DNA of 37,236 nt from Streptobacillus felis (lineage in GTDB: Bacteria > Fusobacteriota > Fusobacteriia > Fusobacteriales > Leptotrichiaceae). The notes beneath the pieces were generated by a model that did not search any database, was not told the DNA's origin, and worked only from the letters and a program-made list of their open reading frames with translations. Below, piece after piece: positions 362 through 37,236 of this stretch. Position 1 is the stretch's first letter. Every line of letters begins with the position of its first letter. The stretch is from the NCBI RefSeq assembly GCF_001559775.1, contig NZ_LOHX01000307.1, positions 1 through 37,236 of the forward strand, written 5' to 3'. The position numbers and the translations under genes are program-made.

Positions 362-3728
<3,367 letters not shown>

Positions 3729-3729
<1 letters not shown>

Positions 3730-4913
3730 TGCATATAAAAAGAGAAAATATTAATGCTATAGGACTAGGATATGGAGAATTAGCATTAAAAGGAAAAAAT
3801 AGAGGTACTTTTGAAGGTAATATTAAACAAAGAATTAATAATAAGCTAATAAATTTTGATGCAAAATTAGTAAATGATCTATCAAAATTATATGTATATA
3901 CAAATGAAAGTAATAATGAGAATTTAATTGGTGAATTAAAAAAAATATTTGGTATTAATAATATGAATTTTTCAGTTATGGTTGAAAGTGAAGAAAGATG
4001 TATTAAACAAAAAATAGAAGATATCTCAAATGAATTATATCAAGAAGGTGCTAGAACCTTTAAAATTGAAGTAAATAGAGCTAATAAAAAATTTGAAAAA
4101 AATTCAATGGATTTTGCAAAAGAATTAGGTGCACATGTATTAATAAATACAGAATTCACAAAAGTTTCCATGAAAAATCCAGATGTATTAATTTCTTTAG
4201 ATATTAGAGAAAAAACATATATTTATACTGAAAAAATAAATACCTATGGTGGTCTACCCTTAGGTTCATCAGGAAATGGATTATCATTAATTTCAGGAGG
4301 AATAGATTCTCCGGTTGCATCATTTTTAATGGCTAAAAGAGGGTTGAAATTAGAATATGTTACTTTCCATTCTTTTCCATTTACATCTAAAAAAGCTTTA
4401 GTAAAAATAGAAGAATTAGTAAAAATATTAAGTGAATATAATGGTAAATCTAAATTTTATTCTATGAATATATTACCAATACAGCAGGCTATAAATGAAA
4501 AAACAAATAAAGAATATGCAACTATTTTAACAAGAAGAGCAATGATGAGACTTTCGGAAATGTTAGTTAAAAAAAATAATTTAAAAGCTTTAGTAACTGG
4601 AGAAAGTTTAGGTCAAGTTGCCTCTCAAACTTTAGAAGGGCTAAACTGTACATCAAATGCTGTTGAAAAAACAGTGGTATTTAGACCATTAATTAGTATA
4701 GATAAAATAGAAATTATAGAAAAAGCAAAAGAAATTGGTACTTATGAAAAATCAATAGAACCACACGATGATTCTTGTGCAATGTTTGCACCAAAACATC
4801 CAAATACAAAACCTAGCATTGAAAAAATATTAATAGAAGAATCAAAAATTGAAAACTATGATGAAATATTACTTGAAATTTTTAATAATAAGAAAATGGT
4901 GTTAGTTAAGTAA
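3729..4913 (+). CDS. thiI: tRNA 4-thiouridine synthase ThiI (no rhodanese domain)
   Basis: Installs 4-thiouridine at position 8 of tRNAs; in many bacteria it also supplies sulfur for the thiazole of thiamine. The 394-residue protein has an N-terminal ferredoxin-like/THUMP region (to about 165) and an adenylating PP-loop SGGIDSP (189-195). A conserved cysteine lies in DDSCAMFAPKHPNTKP (C350). It lacks the C-terminal rhodanese domain of the longer E. coli enzyme, so persulfide must come directly from a cysteine desulfurase, as described for Bacillus-type ThiI. It overlaps tgt upstream and the YihY gene downstream by one base each, in a tRNA-modification operon. Confidence 0.94.
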
Positions 4914-6139
4914 TGTTAAAAAAATACAATAAAGATAAAATAATTTCAATGGCTAAGATTTATTTTAAAAAATATTTTTCTAAGGATCTTTCATTATTAG
5001 CATCTAACCTAACATATATGATGATTTTAACAATATTTCCTTTTTTTGCAATAATATTAGGTGTTGCAAAAGGTTTTGGGTTAGATGAGAAACTTATACT
5101 ACAAATAAAGACTTTTATTCCACAAAATGAAGAAGTTTTATCATATGTTTTAGAAACTACAAATAATCTAATTGATAATGCTAGAGGTGGGATACTTACT
5201 GGTTTGGGTATAGCAATTTTAATATTTTCTGTAATAAGTATGTTTGATTTACTTGAAACAACTTTTAATAATATTTGGGATGTAAGAAAGAAAAGAAATA
5301 TTTCTTCTAAATTTATTACTTATATTGCTGTAATATTTTTAGCACCAATATTTATATTATTAATACTTGCAAGTAGTTCTATGTTAGTTGATTTTATTAA
5401 GTCATTTACTGAAATATCTAATCTAACAAAATATATTTTAAAGATATTTAATATGTTATTTAGAATATCATTTATTTCAGCTCTATTTATATTAATTCCA
5501 AATAAAAGAGTAAAATTTTTACCAGCAGTTATTGGAGCTACAATTTCTGATATAGGATTAAATATATTATATAGCATATACATATATTTACAGTTTTCAA
5601 TAAGTAGATACAATTTAATATATGGTTCATTAGCATTTATTCCAATATTTTTAATTTGGATGAAATATGCTTGGACTATAATTTTAATAGGTTCACAAAT
5701 TACATATACTATACAAACTTCAAATGAATTAGTGGAAGAAAAATTTGAAATTTCACTTTCTATGAAAAAAAAGATAGGAATATATATTTTACACATTTTA
5801 TCAAAAAGATTTAATAATATGGAAAAACCTATTAATATGAAACAATTAGTTGAATATACTGGGATTTCAGAAAAAGCACTAAATAGATGTATAAGTATGC
5901 TTGAAGAATACGGATTAATAAATGAAGTTTTAGATGAAAATAAGGAAGTAGAATATTATCAGATAAATATGAATCCAAATAAATTAAGTTATGAAATGTT
6001 TAATGCTATTATTGAAAATGATATTATAGATGATAAATTTATATTAGAACAAATGACAGTTGAAAGAAGAAAAGAATTTGATGAGATTGTTGATCAACTT
6101 AAATATAAAAATGATAAATTGATAATAGAGAATAGGTGA
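4913..6139 (+). CDS. YihY/BrkB family inner-membrane protein
   Basis: A 408-residue membrane protein of the YihY/BrkB (UPF0761) family. The family was once named ribonuclease BN, but that activity belongs to RNase Z, so no enzymatic role is assigned. The N-terminal part matches the family: DLSLLASNLTYMMILTIFPF, then several hydrophobic segments to about residue 270 (about six membrane helices by eye). The C-terminal 130 residues are soluble and read like a winged-helix unit (KQLVEYTGISEKALNRCISM), which is common in longer members. The start overlaps the thiI stop by one base. Confidence 0.85.
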   Translation: MLKKYNKDKIISMAKIYFKKYFSKDLSLLASNLTYMMILTIFPFFAIILGVAKGFGLDEKLILQIKTFIPQNEEVLSYVLETTNNLIDNARGGILTGLGIAILIFSVISMFDLLETTFNNIWDVRKKRNISSKFITYIAVIFLAPIFILLILASSSMLVDFIKSFTEISNLTKYILKIFNMLFRISFISALFILIPNKRVKFLPAVIGATISDIGLNILYSIYIYLQFSISRYNLIYGSLAFIPIFLIWMKYAWTIILIGSQITYTIQTSNELVEEKFEISLSMKKKIGIYILHILSKRFNNMEKPINMKQLVEYTGISEKALNRCISMLEEYGLINEVLDENKEVEYYQINMNPNKLSYEMFNAIIENDIIDDKFILEQMTVERRKEFDEIVDQLKYKNDKLIIENR

Positions 6140-6143
6140 TGAT

Positions 6144-7220
6144 ATGTTACAAGTAATTTTAGTATTGCTAATAGCTCTAATATTTTTATTGATATACCTT
6201 ATATATATTACTATCTCAAGTAAAAAAAATGATGAGTTTAAAGATATGAAGTTTGAAATTATAGAAAAACTTATGGAAAAAAATGAAAAATCAAAAGACG
6301 ATATATCAAAATTAATATATGATGATAAAATAAATGTAAAAAATGAAATTAGTGATTTTAAATCAAATATTAGAGAAAATATTACTAAGGATGTTTTAAC
6401 TCTAGGAGATAAAGTTGAAAATAGGTTAAAAGATGGATTTAAAATTTCAAATGATGCTGTAAATACAGTAATACAAAGATTAGTAAAAATAGATGAAGCA
6501 CAAAAAAATATAGAAAAACTATCTACTGAGGTTGTTTCTTTACAAAAAATATTATCGGACAAAAAATCGAGAGGAACATTTGGTGAATCAAGATTAGAAC
6601 AAGTATTGGAATATGTATTTGGAGATAATAATCTTTATGAAAGGCAATATAAATTTTCTAATGGTAAAGTTGCTGATGCTGTAGTATTTTTAAATACTAA
6701 ACTAAATAAATTAGCAATAGATTCAAAGTTTCCGTTAGAAAACTATATGCTATATATTGAAAATAAGAGTGTAGAATATAAAAAGGAATTTATTAAAGAT
6801 TTAAAAAAACATATAGATGATATTTCAAGTAAATATATTATTCCAGGAGAAACGATAAATCAAGCTATAATGTTTTTACCTAGTGAATCAATTTTTATGG
6901 AAATATATAATGATTTTCCAGAAATTCTAGAATATGCATATTCTAAAAAAGTATGGATTTCATCTCAAACTAATTTGATGATATATATTACAACTATGCA
7001 ATTTTCAGCTATAGAGTATAAAAAAAATGAAAATGCAAAAGAAATTTTAGCTCAATTAGATAGATTTTCAAATGAATTTACAAGATTTTATACTAGGTGG
7101 GAAAACTTAAATAAAGATTTTAAAAAATATGAAAAGGACTTTAATGATTTAAGTATTACTAGTGAAAAGATAATAAAAGAGTTTGAGAAAATAAAAAATT
7201 TAGTTGATATCAATGAATAA
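6144..7220 (+). CDS. rmuC: RmuC-family DNA recombination protein
   Basis: RmuC proteins limit DNA rearrangements such as inversions between short inverted repeats; the fold is nuclease-like but the biochemical role is poorly defined. The 358-residue protein has one N-terminal membrane helix (about 2-24). A long coiled-coil region follows to about 140. The conserved domain then begins with SRGTFGESRLEQVLEYVFG and continues with VADAVVFLN and LAIDSKFPLENY, the family signature with the DSKFP motif. A GGTGAT ribosome binding site lies just before the ATG, which starts 4 bases after yihY. It ends the rel operon, and the promoter for malQ overlaps its last codons. Confidence 0.9.
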   Translation: MLQVILVLLIALIFLLIYLIYITISSKKNDEFKDMKFEIIEKLMEKNEKSKDDISKLIYDDKINVKNEISDFKSNIRENITKDVLTLGDKVENRLKDGFKISNDAVNTVIQRLVKIDEAQKNIEKLSTEVVSLQKILSDKKSRGTFGESRLEQVLEYVFGDNNLYERQYKFSNGKVADAVVFLNTKLNKLAIDSKFPLENYMLYIENKSVEYKKEFIKDLKKHIDDISSKYIIPGETINQAIMFLPSESIFMEIYNDFPEILEYAYSKKVWISSQTNLMIYITTMQFSAIEYKKNENAKEILAQLDRFSNEFTRFYTRWENLNKDFKKYEKDFNDLSITSEKIIKEFEKIKNLVDINE

Positions 7221-29603: not shown

Positions 29604-30914
29604 ATGAAAAAAGCAACAGTAATTACTTATGGTTGTCAAATGAATGTAAATGAAAGTGCAAAAATAAAAAAAATATTTAAAAATATGGGATATGAAGTAG
29701 TAGAAGAAATAGATGATTGTGATGCTGTATTTTTAAATACTTGTACAGTAAGAGAAGGTGCTGCTACTCAAATTTATGGTAAATTAGGTGAATTAATAGA
29801 ATTAAAGAAGAGAAAAGGTACTATTATAGGTATTACAGGTTGTTTTGCTCAAGAGGCTGGATTTGAGTTAATTAAGAAATTTCCAATGATAGATATAGTT
29901 ATGGGAAATCAAAACATAGGTCGTATTCCAGATGCAATAGAAAAGATATTAAATCATGAAAGTGAACATGAAGTTTATACAGATAATGAAGATGTTTTAC
30001 CACCAAGATTAGATGCTGATTTTGGTGGAGATAAGACAGCCTCTATTTCTATAAGTTATGGTTGTGATAAACGTTGTAGTTTCTGCATAGTTCCATATGT
30101 TAGAGGAAAAGAAAGATCTGTTCCTATGGAAGATATATTACTTGATGTAAAACATTACTTAAAAAAAGGTGCTAAAGAGATAGTTTTATTAGGACAAAAT
30201 GTTAATGCATATGGTAAAAAATTTAAAAATGGAGATACTTTTGCTAAACTTTTAGATGAAATTTGTAAAATAGAAGGAGATTATATTCTTAGATTTACTT
30301 CGCCTCATCCAAGAGATTTTACTGACGATGTAATAGATGTGATAGCGAAGAACGAGAAAATTGCAAGATGTATTCATATGCCATTACAATCTGGTTCAAC
30401 AAAAATACTAAAAAATATGTTAAGAGGATATACAAAAGAGCAATTTTTAACTCTTGCTGAAAAAATAAAAGAAAGAATTCCTGGTGCTTCACTTACAACA
30501 GATATTATTGTTGGATTTCCTGGAGAAACAGATGAGGACTTTCAAGATACATTAGATGTTGTAGAAAAAGTAGGATTTGAAAATGCATATATTTTTATGT
30601 ACTCAATAAGAAGAGGAACAAGAGCGGCTACAATGGAAAATCAGGTTCCTGAAGAAGTGAAAAAAGAAAGATTACATAAATTAAATAACTTACAAGATAG
30701 ATGTGCGTATAAAGAGAGTGTTAAATACTTAAATAAAGTTGTTAGAGTATTAGTTGAAGGACCAAGTAAGAAAAATAAAGAAGTGTTAACAGGAAGAACT
30801 TCAACTAATAAAGTAGTTTTATTTAAAGGTGAAGACAAATTATATAGAGGTCGTTTTGTAAATGTAAAAATAAATGATTGTAAAACTTGGACTTTGTACG
30901 GTGAAATAGTATAA
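29604..30914 (+). CDS. miaB: tRNA-2-methylthio-N6-dimethylallyladenosine synthase MiaB
   Basis: A radical-SAM enzyme that adds a methylthio group to i6A37 of tRNAs. The 436-residue protein has the three UPF0004 cysteines C11 (TYGCQMNVNES), C47 (NTCTVRE) and C80 (TGCFAQE). The radical-SAM cluster is C154/C158/C161 (GCDKRCSFCIVPYVRGKE). A C-terminal TRAM domain ends the protein. The VPYVRGKERS segment favours MiaB over RimO and MtaB. miaA is not in the window. Confidence 0.95.
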   Translation: MKKATVITYGCQMNVNESAKIKKIFKNMGYEVVEEIDDCDAVFLNTCTVREGAATQIYGKLGELIELKKRKGTIIGITGCFAQEAGFELIKKFPMIDIVMGNQNIGRIPDAIEKILNHESEHEVYTDNEDVLPPRLDADFGGDKTASISISYGCDKRCSFCIVPYVRGKERSVPMEDILLDVKHYLKKGAKEIVLLGQNVNAYGKKFKNGDTFAKLLDEICKIEGDYILRFTSPHPRDFTDDVIDVIAKNEKIARCIHMPLQSGSTKILKNMLRGYTKEQFLTLAEKIKERIPGASLTTDIIVGFPGETDEDFQDTLDVVEKVGFENAYIFMYSIRRGTRAATMENQVPEEVKKERLHKLNNLQDRCAYKESVKYLNKVVRVLVEGPSKKNKEVLTGRTSTNKVVLFKGEDKLYRGRFVNVKINDCKTWTLYGEIV

Positions 30915-30928
30915 AAAATAGTGTTTAT

Positions 30929-31048: not shown

Positions 31049-32071
31049 TTAGTACTCTAATAAATTAATCACCTCTAAAAGATCTTCAATATCCCAGTGT
31101 GTATATACTCCATCAGTTACATTTGTTTCTTCATGACCGACAATGTTTTTTATTTTGGAAACACTTACATTTAGCTTTCTCATTTTAGTAATAAAAGTAT
31201 GTCTAATTGAGTGAAGATTTGATACAAAATCTTCTTCTCCATGCATTTTTTTGAAATTAACATGTATTGTTCCGTATTTAAGATTCTTGAATAAATGTTC
31301 GCCTTTGTTCATATTTTCTTTTATTATTGGCAAAATTTTATCGTGAATTGGTATTTTTCTATTTAAACCTGCCTCAGTCTTTGATCCAGTAATTAAATAT
31401 TTTTCTTTTAAAAATATATTTTTATTTTTAATACGGATTAAATCAATGGTTCTCATTCCAGTATAGAATAATATTAGAATCATTGCAGCATATTTATTAG
31501 TTTTCTTTTTATAAATATTCCATAATTTCTGAACAAATTCATTAGAATAAACACATCTATCTATTACTCTAATTTGGTTATCTGATCTACTTAAAAGAGC
31601 TGCTATATTATTGGTTGTTATTTCGTTTTTTATTGCATCTAAATAAATGTTTTTTAATACTATTAATGCCCTTTTAGTAGTTGAAACTGGATGTTCATCT
31701 AATAAGATTTGATAATCTTTATATTTCAAAAATATAAAAAGTTCTGTAAGTATTGGTTCAAATATAATGGTAAAAGCCCTTATATAATCTTCAACTGTTT
31801 TTTCAGTTTTTATATTTTTAGCATGTTTAGAATTTTTCCATAATTCTAACATGTCTGATAAAGTAAGTTCAGAATTTTCTAAATTATATTTTTTTAGATT
31901 AAAATCTCTTAAAATTGTCTCTGCTTCTTTTAGAGTTTTAGCTGAACCTATGACTTTTCTAGTAAATTTTCCTTTAGAATTAATGTATGCTGGTCCTCTA
32001 ACTATAAATGGTTTTCTTAGTGGTCTATTTTTAATTTTATAAATTGATCCTGTTCCGTTTGGTTTTCTCAT
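31049..32071 (-). CDS. int: Tyrosine recombinase/integrase
   Basis: Catalyses site-specific integration and excision of the element. The 340-residue protein has an AP2-like/arm-binding N-terminus (NGTGSIYKIKNRPLRKPFIV), a SAM-like core-binding region and the catalytic domain. Active residues are R207 (YTGMRTID), K231 (SKTEAG), H287 and R290 (LHSIRHTFITKM), H313 (VGHEETNVTD) and Y323 (VYTHW). All six catalytic positions are present, so it should be active. I start at ATG 32071 because AGGAG lies 10 bases before it; a GTG at 32080 is too close to that site. It points toward miaB, as expected for an integrase at the element's end. Confidence 0.93.
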   Translation of the reverse strand: MRKPNGTGSIYKIKNRPLRKPFIVRGPAYINSKGKFTRKVIGSAKTLKEAETILRDFNLKKYNLENSELTLSDMLELWKNSKHAKNIKTEKTVEDYIRAFTIIFEPILTELFIFLKYKDYQILLDEHPVSTTKRALIVLKNIYLDAIKNEITTNNIAALLSRSDNQIRVIDRCVYSNEFVQKLWNIYKKKTNKYAAMILILFYTGMRTIDLIRIKNKNIFLKEKYLITGSKTEAGLNRKIPIHDKILPIIKENMNKGEHLFKNLKYGTIHVNFKKMHGEEDFVSNLHSIRHTFITKMRKLNVSVSKIKNIVGHEETNVTDGVYTHWDIEDLLEVINLLEY

Positions 32072-32072
32072 T

Positions 32073-32392
32073 TTACTCACTCTCCTTTATTTTTTTAATC
32101 ATTTCAATTAGTAGAGTTGAGTAAATTTCTATATCAAAAAGTTTGAATAATTTATATACTTCTAAGTGATACTTAAAAGTTTTTTTTGTAATAATAAAAT
32201 CAAGAAATATATCTTTCTTTTTCTTATTTCTAGATAAATAAATCAATGAATAATAATAAATCCATGTATATTCATCTTTTAATAGTTTTTCTGAAACTAA
32301 AAGTCTTGGTTCATTAAAGATCCATACTATTTTAGCTTTCTTTTCATTAGAAAAAACATTTCTAACTTGTAATTTTTGCTTTTTTTTAGCAT
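32073..32392 (-). pseudogene. Small gene needing a -1 frameshift at an A8 tract
   Basis: An AAGGAG site (32406-32401) sits 8 bases before ATG 32392. That ATG frame stops after 21 codons. Eight A residues (32387-32380) begin four bases after the ATG codon. Shifting -1 there enters a frame that is open for about 100 codons to TAA at 32075-32073, just before the integrase ATG. The joined product would have 106 residues starting MLKKKQKLQVRN. It is basic and rich in aromatic and isoleucine residues, and contains KIVWIFNEPRLLVSEKLL. The long frame has no start codon of its own near its 5' end. I recognise no family. It may be a frameshift mutation, a sequencing error, or expressed by programmed frameshifting or polymerase slippage on A8. 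Confidence 0.6.
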
Positions 32393-32441: not shown

Positions 32442-32789
32442 TTAAATTTTGTCTTTTAAAAATTTTTCTACATGCTTTAAATATCTTTTTATGTCTTTTT
32501 CAGACATCAAAGTAATTTTAGATAATAATGCTTCATTTATTGTTAAAATAGAATCTAAAATAGGGTTTGTATCATCCTTTTCAGTATTATTATCATCTAG
32601 TAAAAAATAGTTTATATCTTTTCCAAATATTTTTGAAAGAATTGTTAAATTTTCAAGTGGAATATTTTTTGTATATCCATTTTCATATGCTTTTATTTTT
32701 GACACATTTATTCCAGATAATTCTGCTAATCTTTCCATAGTTAATTTTAATCTTTTTCTTTCACTTTTCAATTTTTTATCTATAGACAT
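32442..32789 (-). CDS. XRE-family repressor, short form
   Basis: A 115-residue helix-turn-helix protein. The XRE domain spans about 5-62 (LKSERKRLKLTMERLAELSG, then INVSKIKAYENGYTKNIPLE) and ends IFGKDINYFLL. A helical tail follows, possibly for dimerisation. It lacks the Ser-Lys peptidase domain of lambda CI/LexA-type repressors, so it cannot self-cleave. Release probably depends on a protein partner, and a BRO-N antirepressor is encoded in the same element. ATG 32789 follows AAAGGAGAG. It faces away from the rightward genes across a repeat-rich control region, the typical place for the element's master repressor. Confidence 0.85.
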   Translation of the reverse strand: MSIDKKLKSERKRLKLTMERLAELSGINVSKIKAYENGYTKNIPLENLTILSKIFGKDINYFLLDDNNTEKDDTNPILDSILTINEALLSKITLMSEKDIKRYLKHVEKFLKDKI

Positions 32790-32811
32790 AAAAATCTCTC
32801 CTTTCAAAAAT

Positions 32812-32840
32812 ATTATAACATATAATTTAAAAAATATAAA
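32812..32840 (-). promoter_or_regulatory. Putative promoter of the XRE repressor
   Basis: On the minus strand, TATAAT (32817-32812) lies 17 bases from a weak TTTATA (32840-32835). It is about 23 bases before the start codon. Confidence 0.5.
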
Positions 32841-32996
32841 ATAAAATAGAAAATTTAAACGTTATTCTTTCTTAAAAACAAATACCCCTCAAATTTCAAA
32901 AATAAACCACCTAGGAGCATTGAAAATTGTTTTTTTGACAAATTATAGCTTAAAATACAAATTCCTCTAATACATACCTTAAATAGTAAATTAGCT

Positions 32997-33111
32997 CAGG
33001 GATAAAATATATCCCTGATAGTGTCTTTCGAAAAGCTAGTAAATACTACAGGGATAAAAATTATCCCTGGTGAAAAGCTAGTAAATACTACAGGGATAAA
33101 ATTTATCCCCT
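32997..33111. repeat. Three palindromic sites, candidate operators or iterons
   Basis: Three 21-bp sites lie at 32997-33017, 33049-33069 and 33091-33111. Each has CAGGGATA, a 5-base A/T centre, and TATCCCTG; the third ends TATCCCCT. Start-to-start distances are 52 and 42 bases, about five and four helical turns, so all face the same side of the helix. The last two also share an identical 30-base upstream stretch that starts GAAAAGCTAGTAAATACTA (33030 and 33072), a 42-bp tandem repeat. They fit operators of the adjacent repressor or initiator-binding iterons. Confidence 0.85.
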
Positions 33112-33144
33112 AGTATTAGTAAAAAAGATAACTTTATTAAAGTC

Positions 33145-33192
33145 TTATATTATATATTATTATATATTATTATATATATATTATTATATATA
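33145..33192. other. 48-bp pure A/T tract, candidate DNA-unwinding element
   Basis: An uninterrupted A/T stretch built from ATATTATTAT-like units. It lies 34 bases after the third palindromic site and upstream of the RepA_N genes. Palindromic repeats next to such a tract is the usual layout of a replication origin. The rest of 32808-33433 shows no convincing gene. Confidence 0.5.
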
Positions 33193-33375
33193 GAGAAGGA
33201 TTAAAAAAAATTAATAAAAATATATCAGAGAAAAAATAAACAAATATGAATTATCAATTTTTAAAGAAAAGTAATGTGTTATATTATTTAATAACTAACT
33301 ATATAATACAAGTTTATATATAAAAATTAAAAGTATTTTGATTTATACATAATCAAAAATAAAAATAAAAAGGTA

Positions 33376-33404
33376 TTGACTTAATCAAAAATATAGTGTA
33401 AAAT
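33376..33404 (+). promoter_or_regulatory. Promoter of the rightward element genes
   Basis: TTGACT (33376-33381) and TAAAAT (33399-33404) are 17 bases apart. The -35 is part of a near-palindrome, TTGACTTAATCAA (33376-33388). A related inverted repeat, TTGATT-N7-AATCAA, lies at 33338-33356. These could be a second class of operator for this promoter. Confidence 0.6.
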
Positions 33405-33433
33405 AGCTATATAAACAACAAGAGGAGATACAT

Positions 33434-33649
33434 ATGAAATTAACTGTTTGTAATGTTGCCAAAGAATTAAATGTTCATCCTATGAAATTAGCATGGGAAA
33501 TAAGAAATGGTGTATATGAATTTGCAAAAGCATATAAAAAAAATAAAAATTCTGCCAAGCATACATATTTTTTTGATTATGTTAAAACTATGAAATATAT
33601 TCACGAATATAAGGAAGCTGTGGAAATTTATGAGAAAGAAAAGAATTGA
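33434..33649 (+). CDS. Small putative DNA-binding protein
   Basis: A 71-residue protein, first of the rightward run, with a GAGGAG site before its ATG. Residues about 5-26 (VCNVAKELNVHPMKLAWEIR) read like a helix-turn-helix of the excisionase/MerR type. The rest is basic and aromatic, ending in a helix (EAVEIYEKEKN). By position it could be a Cro-like regulator, an excisionase or an early activator. The family is not recognised. Its last 20 bases overlap the next gene. Confidence 0.6.
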   Translation: MKLTVCNVAKELNVHPMKLAWEIRNGVYEFAKAYKKNKNSAKHTYFFDYVKTMKYIHEYKEAVEIYEKEKN

Positions 33650-33995
33650 ATATGAATTTTGCTATAGATTTTATGAAAATGAAATTTATGTTTATTCAAG
33701 AGAAAAAGGAAAAACAAATAAATCATATTGGGACTGGCAGTATTTATGTAGACAACAAAAATGTACATGGAGAAATTTATTTCAAGTATTTATGATAAAT
33801 AATAAATATAAAAAACTTGCTGATTACGAAAATAACTTATTTAAAATTGAAATTTGGGAAAACAATGATTATAGGATTACTTTATTTAAAAATAATGGCA
33901 TAAAAAATATAGAACTTGAACCATTTATACATTTTTCTAAAAGGGATAAAGAATTAGATAGTATTATTAAAACAAAAAGAAAGAAGAGTGAGTAA
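33630..33995 (+). CDS. Hypothetical protein, possible paralogue of the gene at 34776
   Basis: A 121-residue protein that is basic and aromatic-rich: NEIYVYSREKGKTNKSYWDW early and IEIWENNDYRITLFKNNGI late. By eye it shares a layout with the protein encoded at 34776-35150: NEI-x2-(F/Y)-x-REK-x-K-N in the first third and I-x-IW-x3-(D/E)Y-(R/K)IT near the C-terminus. Function is unknown. The start overlaps the previous gene by 20 bases and has only a weak ribosome binding site. Its stop abuts the first RepA_N gene. Confidence 0.6.
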   Translation: MRKKRIEYEFCYRFYENEIYVYSREKGKTNKSYWDWQYLCRQQKCTWRNLFQVFMINNKYKKLADYENNLFKIEIWENNDYRITLFKNNGIKNIELEPFIHFSKRDKELDSIIKTKRKKSE

Positions 33996-33996
33996 A

Positions 33997-34320
33997 ATGA
34001 GTGATTATTATTATGAGAGTGATGAAATTTTTGATGGCTATTTATTAATGCCTAAAAGCTTGATAAAAAAAGAACCGTATAGATTTATTAGTGATGGTGC
34101 TAAAATAATTTATTGTTTAATGAGAGAAAAAAGTTTTGTAGAAAAAGAAAGTGGAAAAAGTTTTATATTTTTCCAAAAAACTGAGATACAGGAAGTATTA
34201 AATGTTTCAAAAAAAAAGGCAACAAAAATTATAAAAGAATTGGAAAATGTAAATTTATTAGAAAAAATAAAAGATATTAAAAAGGGAACTAATATATATT
34301 ATATAAAACATTCAATTTAA
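33997..34320 (+). CDS. RepA_N-domain replication initiator-like protein 1
   Basis: A 107-residue protein with the RepA_N pattern: YLLMPKSLIKKEPYRFISDG, then AKIIYCLMREK, and a winged-helix segment TEIQEVLNVSKKKATKIIKE followed by LENVNLLEK and NIYYIKHS. RepA_N proteins start replication of many low-GC plasmids and some mobile elements. Only the N-terminal DNA-binding domain is present, and there is no C-terminal host-specific domain. I use ATG 33997, which follows AAGAAGAG; an in-frame GTG at 33988 is less likely. It is the first of two tandem paralogues. Confidence 0.75.
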   Translation: MSDYYYESDEIFDGYLLMPKSLIKKEPYRFISDGAKIIYCLMREKSFVEKESGKSFIFFQKTEIQEVLNVSKKKATKIIKELENVNLLEKIKDIKKGTNIYYIKHSI

Positions 34321-34331
34321 AAGGAGAAATT

Positions 34332-34760
34332 ATGAATTTAGATTATTATTATAGACATGAGCTTGACTTTTATGATTTTTTTGTATTTCCAAAAGCATTA
34401 ATAAGTAAAGAGCCATTTAAATATTTGTCTGGTGATGCCAAAATATTATATTGCTTAATGAGAGATAGAATGAAAAGTTCTGAAGAAAATGGTTTTTATG
34501 ATGAGGATGGTAAAGTTTTTTTTATATATACTATAAAAGAAGTATGTGAAGTAATGAATGTTTCTAAAGCTACATCACAAAAATTAATTCAAGAATTGAA
34601 AAGCTTAGAATTAATTGAAAAGAGAAGGAAATCTATTGATTCACCAAACTTTTATTATCTAAAGAAAGTAGATTTAAATACTAGAACTGAAAGAACAATG
34701 GAAGAAATAAAAGCAAATATAGAAAAATTTAGAAATATCGTTAAAAAACAAAATTTATAA
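34332..34760 (+). CDS. RepA_N-domain replication initiator-like protein 2
   Basis: A 142-residue RepA_N-type protein. FFVFPKALISKEPFKYLSGD and AKILYCLMRDRM are followed by the family-typical loop NGFYDEDGKVFFIYTIKEVC, which is more complete than in the upstream copy. Next come MNVSKATSQKLIQELK and LIEKRRKSIDSPNFYYLKK. A charged helical tail (about 118-142) replaces the usual C-terminal domain. It is clearly similar to the preceding protein and probably arose by duplication. AAAAGGAG precedes the ATG. Confidence 0.82.
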   Translation: MNLDYYYRHELDFYDFFVFPKALISKEPFKYLSGDAKILYCLMRDRMKSSEENGFYDEDGKVFFIYTIKEVCEVMNVSKATSQKLIQELKSLELIEKRRKSIDSPNFYYLKKVDLNTRTERTMEEIKANIEKFRNIVKKQNL

Positions 34761-34775: not shown

Positions 34776-35150
34776 ATGAAAGAATTCTATTTGAAAAAAA
34801 ACAATAAAAATGAAATTATATTTTTCTTTAGAGAAAAAACAAAAAATTCATCAAGTAAAGAAATATGGATGCAAAAAATTGATGAAAATTCAAAAATTAA
34901 CGATCTTGATTCTAATGCCACTTTTAATAAATTGCTTTGTTTTCTAGAAGTTAAAAATAAGATAATACATACTTTAGATGATGTTAATATTACTATTTGG
35001 AGAGGTGAAGAATATAAAATTACAAAAATAGAAATGAATAAACAAATAACTGGATTACAATTTTCTATAGCTGATGAAAATTATATATGCACAGAAAATG
35101 AAATATATATAATAAATCAAAATAACAGCATAAATGAAAGGTTGGTTTAA
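34776..35150 (+). CDS. Hypothetical protein, possible paralogue of the gene at 33630
   Basis: A 124-residue protein not assigned to a family. It contains KNEIIFFFREKTKNSSSKEI, a middle LLCFLEVKNKII, and ITIWRGEEYKITKIEMN, which parallels the protein at 33630-33995. It appears to be a small beta-rich soluble protein. The two paralogue candidates flank the two RepA_N genes (order A-B-B-A), so the four may form a functional unit. It ends one base before the BRO-N gene. Confidence 0.6.
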   Translation: MKEFYLKKNNKNEIIFFFREKTKNSSSKEIWMQKIDENSKINDLDSNATFNKLLCFLEVKNKIIHTLDDVNITIWRGEEYKITKIEMNKQITGLQFSIADENYICTENEIYIINQNNSINERLV

Positions 35151-35151
35151 T

Positions 35152-35838
35152 ATGAAAATTTTAGAAAAAAAAGAAATTTTAGGTGTCGAACTAGTTATAT
35201 TTGGATCTGAAGTAAATCCAATGTTTAATGCTAATGAAATAGCAAAAATCATTGAAAATAAGAATGTATCTCAAATGCTTAAAGATGTTGATCAAGATGA
35301 GAAAAAACTTGTAATTATTACTAGAGCTGATGGAAAGCAACACAAATCATGGTATTTAACTGAAGAGGGGCTATATGAAGTTTTATTTGCAAGTAGAAAA
35401 CCAATTGCAAAAAAATTTAAAAAACAAGTAAAGGAAATACTTAAAAATATAAGGCAAAAAGGTGGGTACATAGTTGTTAGAAAAGAAGATAATGAAGCCA
35501 CAATTAAAGCTAGATTAGAAGGACTTATGAAAGAAACTGAACAAAGATTGACATTACTTGAAAAAAAAGTAAATGAATATGAAATATTTTTTGATGAAGG
35601 GAAAGCATACAACTCAGTTAATTTTCTAGCTAAAAAATATAATCTAGCAGTAGATGAATTAATTGAAAAATTAACTAAAAGTAAGTTTTTATATAGAAAA
35701 GGTGAAAAGTTATATCTTTATAGAGAACATCAATATAAAGGTTATGCTAAATATTTGAAAATAAAAAATAAAGATGTTTTAAAATTTACGCTAAAAGGTG
35801 AATCATTTATCGATAGTTTAATGAGTGATAATAAGTGA
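35152..35838 (+). CDS. BRO-N domain antirepressor
   Basis: A 228-residue phage-type antirepressor. The BRO-N domain (about 1-100) has NPMFNANEIAKIIENKNVSQ and WYLTEEGLYEVLFASRKPIA, followed by KKFKKQVKEILKNIRQKGGY. A coiled segment (about 112-142) leads to a KilA-C/ANT-like C-terminal domain (VNFLAKKYNLAVDELIEKL and HQYKGYAKYLKI). Such proteins typically bind and neutralise an XRE repressor. I use ATG 35152, which has GAAAGG 10 bases upstream; an earlier in-frame ATG at 35134 would overlap that site. The partner is probably the short repressor at 32442-32789. Confidence 0.88.
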   Translation: MKILEKKEILGVELVIFGSEVNPMFNANEIAKIIENKNVSQMLKDVDQDEKKLVIITRADGKQHKSWYLTEEGLYEVLFASRKPIAKKFKKQVKEILKNIRQKGGYIVVRKEDNEATIKARLEGLMKETEQRLTLLEKKVNEYEIFFDEGKAYNSVNFLAKKYNLAVDELIEKLTKSKFLYRKGEKLYLYREHQYKGYAKYLKIKNKDVLKFTLKGESFIDSLMSDNK

Positions 35839-36804: not shown

Positions 36805-36828
36805 TTAAAATATAGTTGAAAGGTGAAA

Positions 36829-37236
36829 ATGGATAATAAAATAACTTATGTAAGTCTATTTAGTAGTGCAGGAGTAGGATGCTACGGTTTTAAAGAAAAT
36901 GGTTTTGAATGTGTAGCAACCTGTGAATTAATAGAATCTAGAATTAATATACAAAAATATAATGAAAAATGTAAATACGAATCAGGATATATTTTAGGAG
37001 ATGTGTCAGATGAAATTATAAGAAATAAACTTTTTAAAGAAATAGATTTTTGGAAGATAAATGAAGGAATAAAAGGTATAGATGTTGTTATAGCAACACC
37101 TCCATGTCAGGGGATGTCTACTGCAAATTATAAAAAAAATAATGAAAAACATAGAAATAGTTTGGTTGTAGAAGCAATTAAAATTATTAATGAAATAAAA
37201 CCTAAAGTATTTGTTTTTGAAAACGTTAGATCATTT
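36829..37236 (+). CDS. DNA cytosine-5 methyltransferase, N-terminal part (runs off right edge)
   Basis: The first 136 residues of a C5 DNA methyltransferase. Motif I is YVSLFSSAGVGCYGFKENGF (SAM binding). Motif IV is ATPPCQGMS with the catalytic C93. Motif VI is FVFENVRSF. The SLFSSAG start is a variant of the usual SLFSGAG. The target-recognition region is outside the window, so specificity is unknown. GAAAGG precedes the ATG. It may belong to a restriction-modification system, with the nuclease gene beyond the edge, or be a solitary element-protecting methylase. Confidence 0.92.
   Translation, partial: MDNKITYVSLFSSAGVGCYGFKENGFECVATCELIESRINIQKYNEKCKYESGYILGDVSDEIIRNKLFKEIDFWKINEGIKGIDVVIATPPCQGMSTANYKKNNEKHRNSLVVEAIKIINEIKPKVFVFENVRSF

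Follow-up and report, generated by a model that had tools for sequence, protein, structure and literature searches.

The dyad locus described here is probably the vegetative replication origin of an ICE, a reading to which we assign a probability of about 0.78. Our model suggests that one or both of two short RepA_N proteins would bind three A-tract dyads (iterons) as dimers, as their homology and co-occurrence with the dyads indicate. The last dyad would set the register of a 5'-CC-CTA-NTA-NTA-NTA-3' run, and the position of this run and its likeness to the host oriC suggest that it would be opened together with the AT-rich DNA beyond it. RepA_N may then recruit DnaA to hold one strand of the run, or a DnaD-like surface of RepA_N may hold the opposite strand; the host replication machinery would be loaded, and the excised circle would replicate. 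The model names no helicase-loading partner because a search of the host for a DnaB_2/DnaD-family protein (PF07261) gave no match and the ICE RepA_N proteins carry no C-terminal domain.

The element and its dyads

The window, that is, the whole stretch of DNA analyzed, is the complete contig C307 (37,236 bases) from a 1.6-Mb draft genome. It is chromosomal up to about position 30,914, where miaB ends (Table 1). The 40 bp at 30881-30920 are repeated at 90% identity on contig C233 of the same genome (48990-49029), where a glgC-like gene follows them. In G001, a complete 1,662,578-bp chromosome from the same genus, a glgC-like gene stands directly after miaB, and we therefore take the C233 copy as attR. 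Since att repeats are found on both contigs, C307 and C233 are taken as adjoining; on this assumption, and judging from sequence, the dyad locus falls within the left arm of an ICE, about 55 kb in length, that has the miaB 3' end as its insertion site. Upstream of attR, C233 carries a MobA-like relaxase, 68% identical to the relaxase of the related ICE L113, as well as VirB8/9/10-like genes and a VirD4-like coupling protein (T4SS names assigned by eye). Thus, the two contigs together hold the components that define an ICE: integrase, att repeats, relaxase, T4SS and coupling protein.

Insertion at miaB is not shared by the related ICEs L113 and L115, whose integrase end adjoins a tRNA cluster. 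The cargo upstream of the relaxase (L153, the locus on C233, positions 951-5578) includes three HipA-like kinase ORFs and a nucleotidyltransferase-like ORF, named by eye. At the other contig end, the window closes with the start of a C5 cytosine DNA methylase gene (36823-37236; Pfam 1.5e-22), cut by the contig end.

Table 1. Features of the ICE arm carried by the window.
Feature	Position	Strand	Evidence or remark
Probable attL of the ICE (miaB 3' end, stop at 30914)	30881..30920	+	40-bp match
Tyrosine integrase	31049..32080	-	Pfam Phage_integrase 1.3e-16; PHROG integrase 2.5e-39
XRE/Cro-type regulator, start TTG 32807 or ATG 32789	32442..32807	-	Pfam HTH_3 6.4e-11
Predicted XRE promoter, TTTATA-17-TATAAT, TG before -10	32812..32840	-	Consensus scan, 10/12
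Iteron 1, dyad CAGGGATA-AAATA-TATCCCTG	32997..33017	.	Full sequence CAGGGATAAAATATATCCCTG
Iteron 2, dyad CAGGGATA-AAAAT-TATCCCTG	33049..33069	.	Full sequence CAGGGATAAAAATTATCCCTG
Iteron 3, core dyad GGGATAAAATTTATCCC	33093..33109	.	Inside copy 33091-33111
Post-iteron trinucleotide element C-CTA-GTA-TTA-GTA-AA, DnaA-trio/DRE-like	33109..33123	+	Conserved in five ICEs
A/T-only tract, 48 nt, candidate unwinding region	33145..33192	.	AT-rich DNA also follows in L113-L116
Predicted rep-operon promoter, TTGACT-17-TAAAAT	33376..33404	+	Consensus scan
Small HTH-like ORF, 71 aa	33434..33649	+	28-36% identical to L113, L115 and L116 counterparts
Short RepA_N protein 1, 110 aa from GTG (107 aa from ATG 33997)	33988..34320	+	Pfam RepA_N 8.2e-12; PDB 4PTA 5.6e-9
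Short RepA_N protein 2, 142 aa, DNA-binding N-terminal domain only	34332..34760	+	Pfam RepA_N 1.5e-22
Conserved ORF, 124 aa	34776..35150	+	In all five ICEs upstream of antirepressor; 37-70% identity
Bro-N/KilAC antirepressor	35134..35838	+	50-75% identity among ICEs

A first-pass annotation of this DNA had described three sites with CAGGGATA/TATCCCTG arms. Two of them are full dyads; the third copy reads CAGGGATAAAATTTATCCCCT and keeps only a GGGATA/TATCCC core, its outer CA/TG pairs being broken, so that GGGATAAAATTTATCCC alone is dyadic there. The dyad starts lie 52 and 42 bp apart, exactly as annotated, and sites 2 and 3 each belong to a 38-nt unit, the two units agreeing at 37 of 38 bases. 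The A/T-only tract had been noted as following the palindromes; it has the full 48 nt, with about 35 nt between it and the last palindrome, and the trinucleotide run lies within this interval. Three same-arm dyads within 150 bp were found in none of 200 dinucleotide shuffles of the window, and an A/T run of at least 48 nt in one of 200. The full palindrome is absent from the rest of the genome. Searching viral contigs for the exact palindrome returned isolated dyads in 51 unrelated stretches, and a 541-bp DNA query against the genus matched mostly short AT-rich stretches.

A scan flagged stem-loops with T-rich tails at all three sites, as would be seen if the dyads were transcription terminators or regulatory RNA hairpins and not protein sites. 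We find this hardly credible: the tails are poor (TAGTGTCTTT, TAGTATTTAC), the AT-rich arms and imperfect dyads of the related elements would give weak stems, and three terminators in tandem would be odd.

Related ICEs and the RepA_N genes

The comparison with related elements, proposed in the first-pass annotation as a check, covered five ICEs: the window, L113 and L114 from G001, L115 from Streptobacillus notomytis AHL 370-1 (G002; contig LJRV01000101.1, 112,811 bases) and L116 from G008, a more distant family member. All five, including the four newly compared, carry 2-4 A-tract dyads beside a short pSK41-type RepA_N gene, whether or not XRE is adjacent. The dyads of the four relatives are GGTGTAATTTTTACACC, GGTTTAAAAAATAAACC, GAAGTAAAAAATTTTTACTTC and GGTAAAAAAATTTGACC. 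Their spacings (22; 23; 23 and 24; 17, 17 and 22) do not bear out helical phasing as a rule of the family, although the window's own spacings had been read as about five and four helical turns. No array was seen in the stretch read by eye at L074, L075 and L089, which are longer RepA_N/DnaD-type loci of the same order, or at the short RepA_N locus L082.

According to a study of the Vibrio cholerae PLE, RepA_N iterons are semi-palindromic direct repeats converging on an A-tract (PMC7145576). The dyads have this published form, inverted repeats around an A-tract, in three copies in the window and two to four in the relatives, and are read as iterons. Of the alternatives put forward in the first-pass annotation, iterons with an unwinding element gained support, both from this form and from the way the repeats track RepA_N in five ICEs. 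The half-site differs from ICE to ICE, as it would if each half-site co-varied with its own initiator; for PLEs, a second study describes such co-variation of origin and RepA_N domain (PMC8263062).

Another of those alternatives was a three-operator repressor switch, which would control XRE and the divergent rep operon in a lambda-like manner. The dyads do lie between XRE and a divergent operon in the window, L113 and L115; in the latter two, a plausible XRE -35 box (by eye) shares bases with the first dyad, and an antirepressor gene is present. In contrast, two of the five ICEs have their dyads away from XRE: those of L114 stand immediately before RepA_N, and those of L116 separate RepA_N from the small HTH gene. 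The locus L117 offers a further control: beyond the genome of the window, the best-matching XRE homologue (40%) is encoded there, together with a small HTH ORF and a DnaD/DnaC-like replication module, and the 224-bp intergenic region of L117 contains, by eye, no such dyads and no CCCTA motif. In the window, the nearest dyad is about 157 bp from the XRE promoter and about 265 bp from the rep-operon promoter and overlaps neither, both promoters being predictions from a scan in which promoter-like sites were no commoner than in shuffles. Moreover, the conserved trinucleotide element abuts one side only of the last dyad. Sites conserved beside XRE and overlapping its promoter were thus not found across the family, which weakens the switch to the point where we consider it quite improbable. 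As the dyads track RepA_N, are missing beside the L117 XRE gene and leave the predicted window promoters uncovered, the sequence comparison leads us to favor an origin over an XRE switch.

Both functions in one locus had been suggested as well: besides serving the RepA_N origin, the first iteron would let RepA_N (or XRE) tune XRE transcription and so tie replication to induction. The first dyad over the plausible -35 box in L113 and L115 makes such a secondary regulatory role possible, and iteron-bound initiators autoregulate in other plasmid families. This geometry is not seen in L114 and L116, and that of the predicted window promoters is unsupportive; on balance we hold the dual role to be doubtful, while granting it more weight than a pure switch.

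The origin reading draws further on the two RepA_N proteins themselves. Both have Pfam scores above the cut-off for the RepA_N N-terminal domain and match the N-terminal domains of the pSK41 and pTZ2162 RepA proteins, for which crystal structures have been solved (E 6e-9 and 5e-18; about 5e-18 for protein 2 against 4PTA, 4PT7, 4PQL and 5KBJ). An AlphaFold model of protein 2 is weak (pLDDT 66), and its best PDB matches are RepA N-terminal domains with poor rmsd. The size of the proteins and the position of the sites count against an origin. At 107-142 aa, both proteins are without the C-terminal domain on which replication by pSK41 Rep (319 aa; PMC5703833) depends, and no second RepA domain was found. 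The sites are 0.9 kb away from the first RepA_N gene, on its upstream side, and each of the five ICEs has them between genes; in plasmids, RepA_N origins are located within rep. A non-coding origin is reported for the PLE too (PMC7145576), so we regard repeats inside rep as typical and not obligatory.

The window carries two tandem short RepA_N genes (33988-34760), 41% identical to each other, where the relatives have one. The two proteins might form heterodimers, or binding and loading might be divided between them. The six short RepA_N proteins, when aligned, proved too divergent for the alignment to be used in scanning, and no matches came from viral contigs searched with XRE, RepA_N or integrase as a single protein query. 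The annotated neighbors of the dyads, a divergent XRE gene and two RepA_N genes, are present, with the qualification that ORFs at 33434 and 33630 precede the RepA_N genes. The first of these, the small HTH-like ORF, has no significant Pfam family. The 124-aa ORF family comprises five ICE copies and occurs in no other genome of the order among those searched. L116 differs from the other ICEs in having its integrase gene (5782-6816) within the operon, where it separates the small HTH gene from the conserved ORF.

A trinucleotide run behind the last dyad

Each of the five ICEs has a last dyad that ends in CC and passes without a gap into CTA-NTA-NTA or a close variant, with AT-rich DNA after it. 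The run reads CTA-GTA-TTA-GTA in the window, CTA-ATA-ATA-CTA-ATA in both L113 and L114, CTA-GTT-ATA-ATA-ATA in L115 and CTA-ATA-AGA-ATA-ATA in L116. T occupies the middle position in 23 of the 25 triplets, compared with 1 of 25 in each other register, and none of 20,000 shuffles reached 23. The run of the window, with a middle T in 4 of its first 5 triplets, is among the more degenerate of the five.

A similar arrangement is found in the host oriC, which lies between dnaA and pth. In each of four Streptobacillus genomes, an ATA-ATA-ATA run follows a TTCACA site, the last DnaA box of oriC, and the run is followed by AAAGAATATG and then AT-rich DNA. The S. notomytis oriC reads AATTCAAAGCC-CTA-ATA-ATA-ATA and is the only one with CCCTA ahead of the run; the other three have 11 nt, then ATA-ATA-ATA, and their lack of a CCCTA start counts against the likeness. 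DnaA-trios are described as 3'-GAT-5' with a spacer of 10-13 (PMC8287927), and TnnT motifs on the strand opposite the trios are recognized by DnaD (PMC10201434). As the oriC run matches this published layout, the ICE origin looks, as far as its sequence goes, like an oriC unwinding element with RepA_N-type sites in place of DnaA boxes. It has at least three 3'-NAN-5' triplets, with TnnT on the other strand, beside initiator boxes. DnaA boxes (TTWTYCACA, at most one mismatch) are absent from 32941-33618, and therefore from the roughly 16 bp upstream of the run where trios would have one.

We also tried the pattern CCCTARTWWKANTA alone as a diagnostic and rejected it: four genomes gave 10 matches, compared with 13 for the reversed control. 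The matches comprise four ICE origins (which helped define the pattern), one oriC (S. notomytis) and five places without dyads upstream. Since they are no commoner than in the control, the pattern is informative by position only.

Firmicutes RepA_N genes and known systems

Scanning genome and viral contigs, we collected 46 further RepA_N loci, mostly from Firmicutes. In many of them the last semi-palindromic iteron, here inside rep, runs directly into CCTAATAATACT, CCTAGTAATACT, CCTAATGATACTGA or close variants. The post-iteron zone, taken as 290-700 nt beyond the match start, holds 35 copies of the motif TA[AG]T[AG]A[TG]A[CT]T on its coding (+) strand, in 26 of the 46 loci, and 0 on the - strand; flanking DNA has 51 occurrences in 300 kb. 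Leuconostoc has a variant rich in GTGAGACTGA, the RepA_N plasmids of Lactobacillus and Lactococcus have a variant only, ATCTA(T/G)A(T/C) and then repeated TAGATACT, and a few of the RepA_N loci have no array.

In Firmicutes the motif encodes PNDTDY-like linkers (Asn/Asp/Thr), and T is favored at wobble positions in AT-rich genomes. The run could accordingly be a low-complexity linker in rep, accompanied by AT-rich drift in the ICEs, and no DNA element at all. We think this unlikely, because the run, although non-coding in each of the five ICEs, retains CCTA and its register, and because the Firmicutes motif occurs in one orientation only. A synonymous bias points the same way: with the motif codons excluded, third-codon T:C in 18 genes is 146:13 right after the motif and 1779:709 in the rest of their codons (odds ratio 4.5, p 6e-10; such p-values overstate independence and are descriptive, since the loci are related and in part redundant, and the motif was defined after viewing the ICEs). 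The bias persists in a gene of 51% G+C (L180; 9:0 vs 60:81) and in one of 40% G+C (L167; 12:0 vs 78:57).

The element looks, by its sequence, like a DnaA-trio/DnaD-recognition element placed behind RepA_N sites. More tentatively, and with somewhat less than even confidence, we suggest that RepA_N origins of Firmicutes and Fusobacteriota share a DnaA-trio/DRE-type strand-opening element fused to the last iteron, in which RepA_N would replace the DnaA boxes and either recruit DnaA or read the run itself. As to the latter, RepA_N and DnaD have folds in common.

RepA_N origins, replicating ICEs and DnaA-trios are each already known. We found no paper combining RepA_N with DnaA-trios in a literature that lacks most subscription papers, and earlier notice is possible. 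For Streptobacillus, this would be, to our knowledge, the first proposed ICE replication origin, and it enlarges the small group of RepA_N systems that do not come from Firmicutes. How RepA_N origins open is described as unknown in the PLE study (PMC7145576), although most large multiresistance plasmids of staphylococci replicate by means of this family (PMC5703833). A DnaA-trio/DRE-like element of 15-45 nt directly behind the iterons, conserved in coding and non-coding settings, makes the opening question directly testable.

The Firmicutes RepA_N theta replicons (pSK41, pTZ2162 and relatives) resemble the ICE origin in their RepA_N winged-helix initiator, their semi-palindromic A-tract repeats and, as found in this analysis, a related post-iteron trinucleotide element. 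In contrast to them, the ICE origin is non-coding, about 0.9 kb upstream of rep, and served by two short RepA_N proteins without the C-terminal domain, in a Fusobacteriota host. The oriC basal unwinding system (DnaA-boxes and DnaA-trios, with the DRE on the other strand) shares the order of initiator sites, every-third-base T/A run and AT-rich DNA, as well as the proximal triplet 3'-GAT-5' (PMC8287927, PMC10201434); the ICE differs in having RepA_N-type dyads for DnaA boxes, no spacer, and a host without a detectable DnaB_2/DnaD-family protein.

The V. cholerae PLE phage satellite, compared by description and not by sequence, is likewise integrated in a Gram-negative host, has three semi-palindromic non-coding iterons, and shows origins and DNA-binding domains that diversify between elements, although its RepA has a C-terminal domain and needs phage functions; the available parts of the two studies describe no trio-like element (PMC7145576, PMC8263062). 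For the TnGBS ICEs of Streptococcus agalactiae, again compared by description, theta replication of the extrachromosomal form is reported (cited in PMC7826253); they belong to another phylum and integrate by IS-type transposition.
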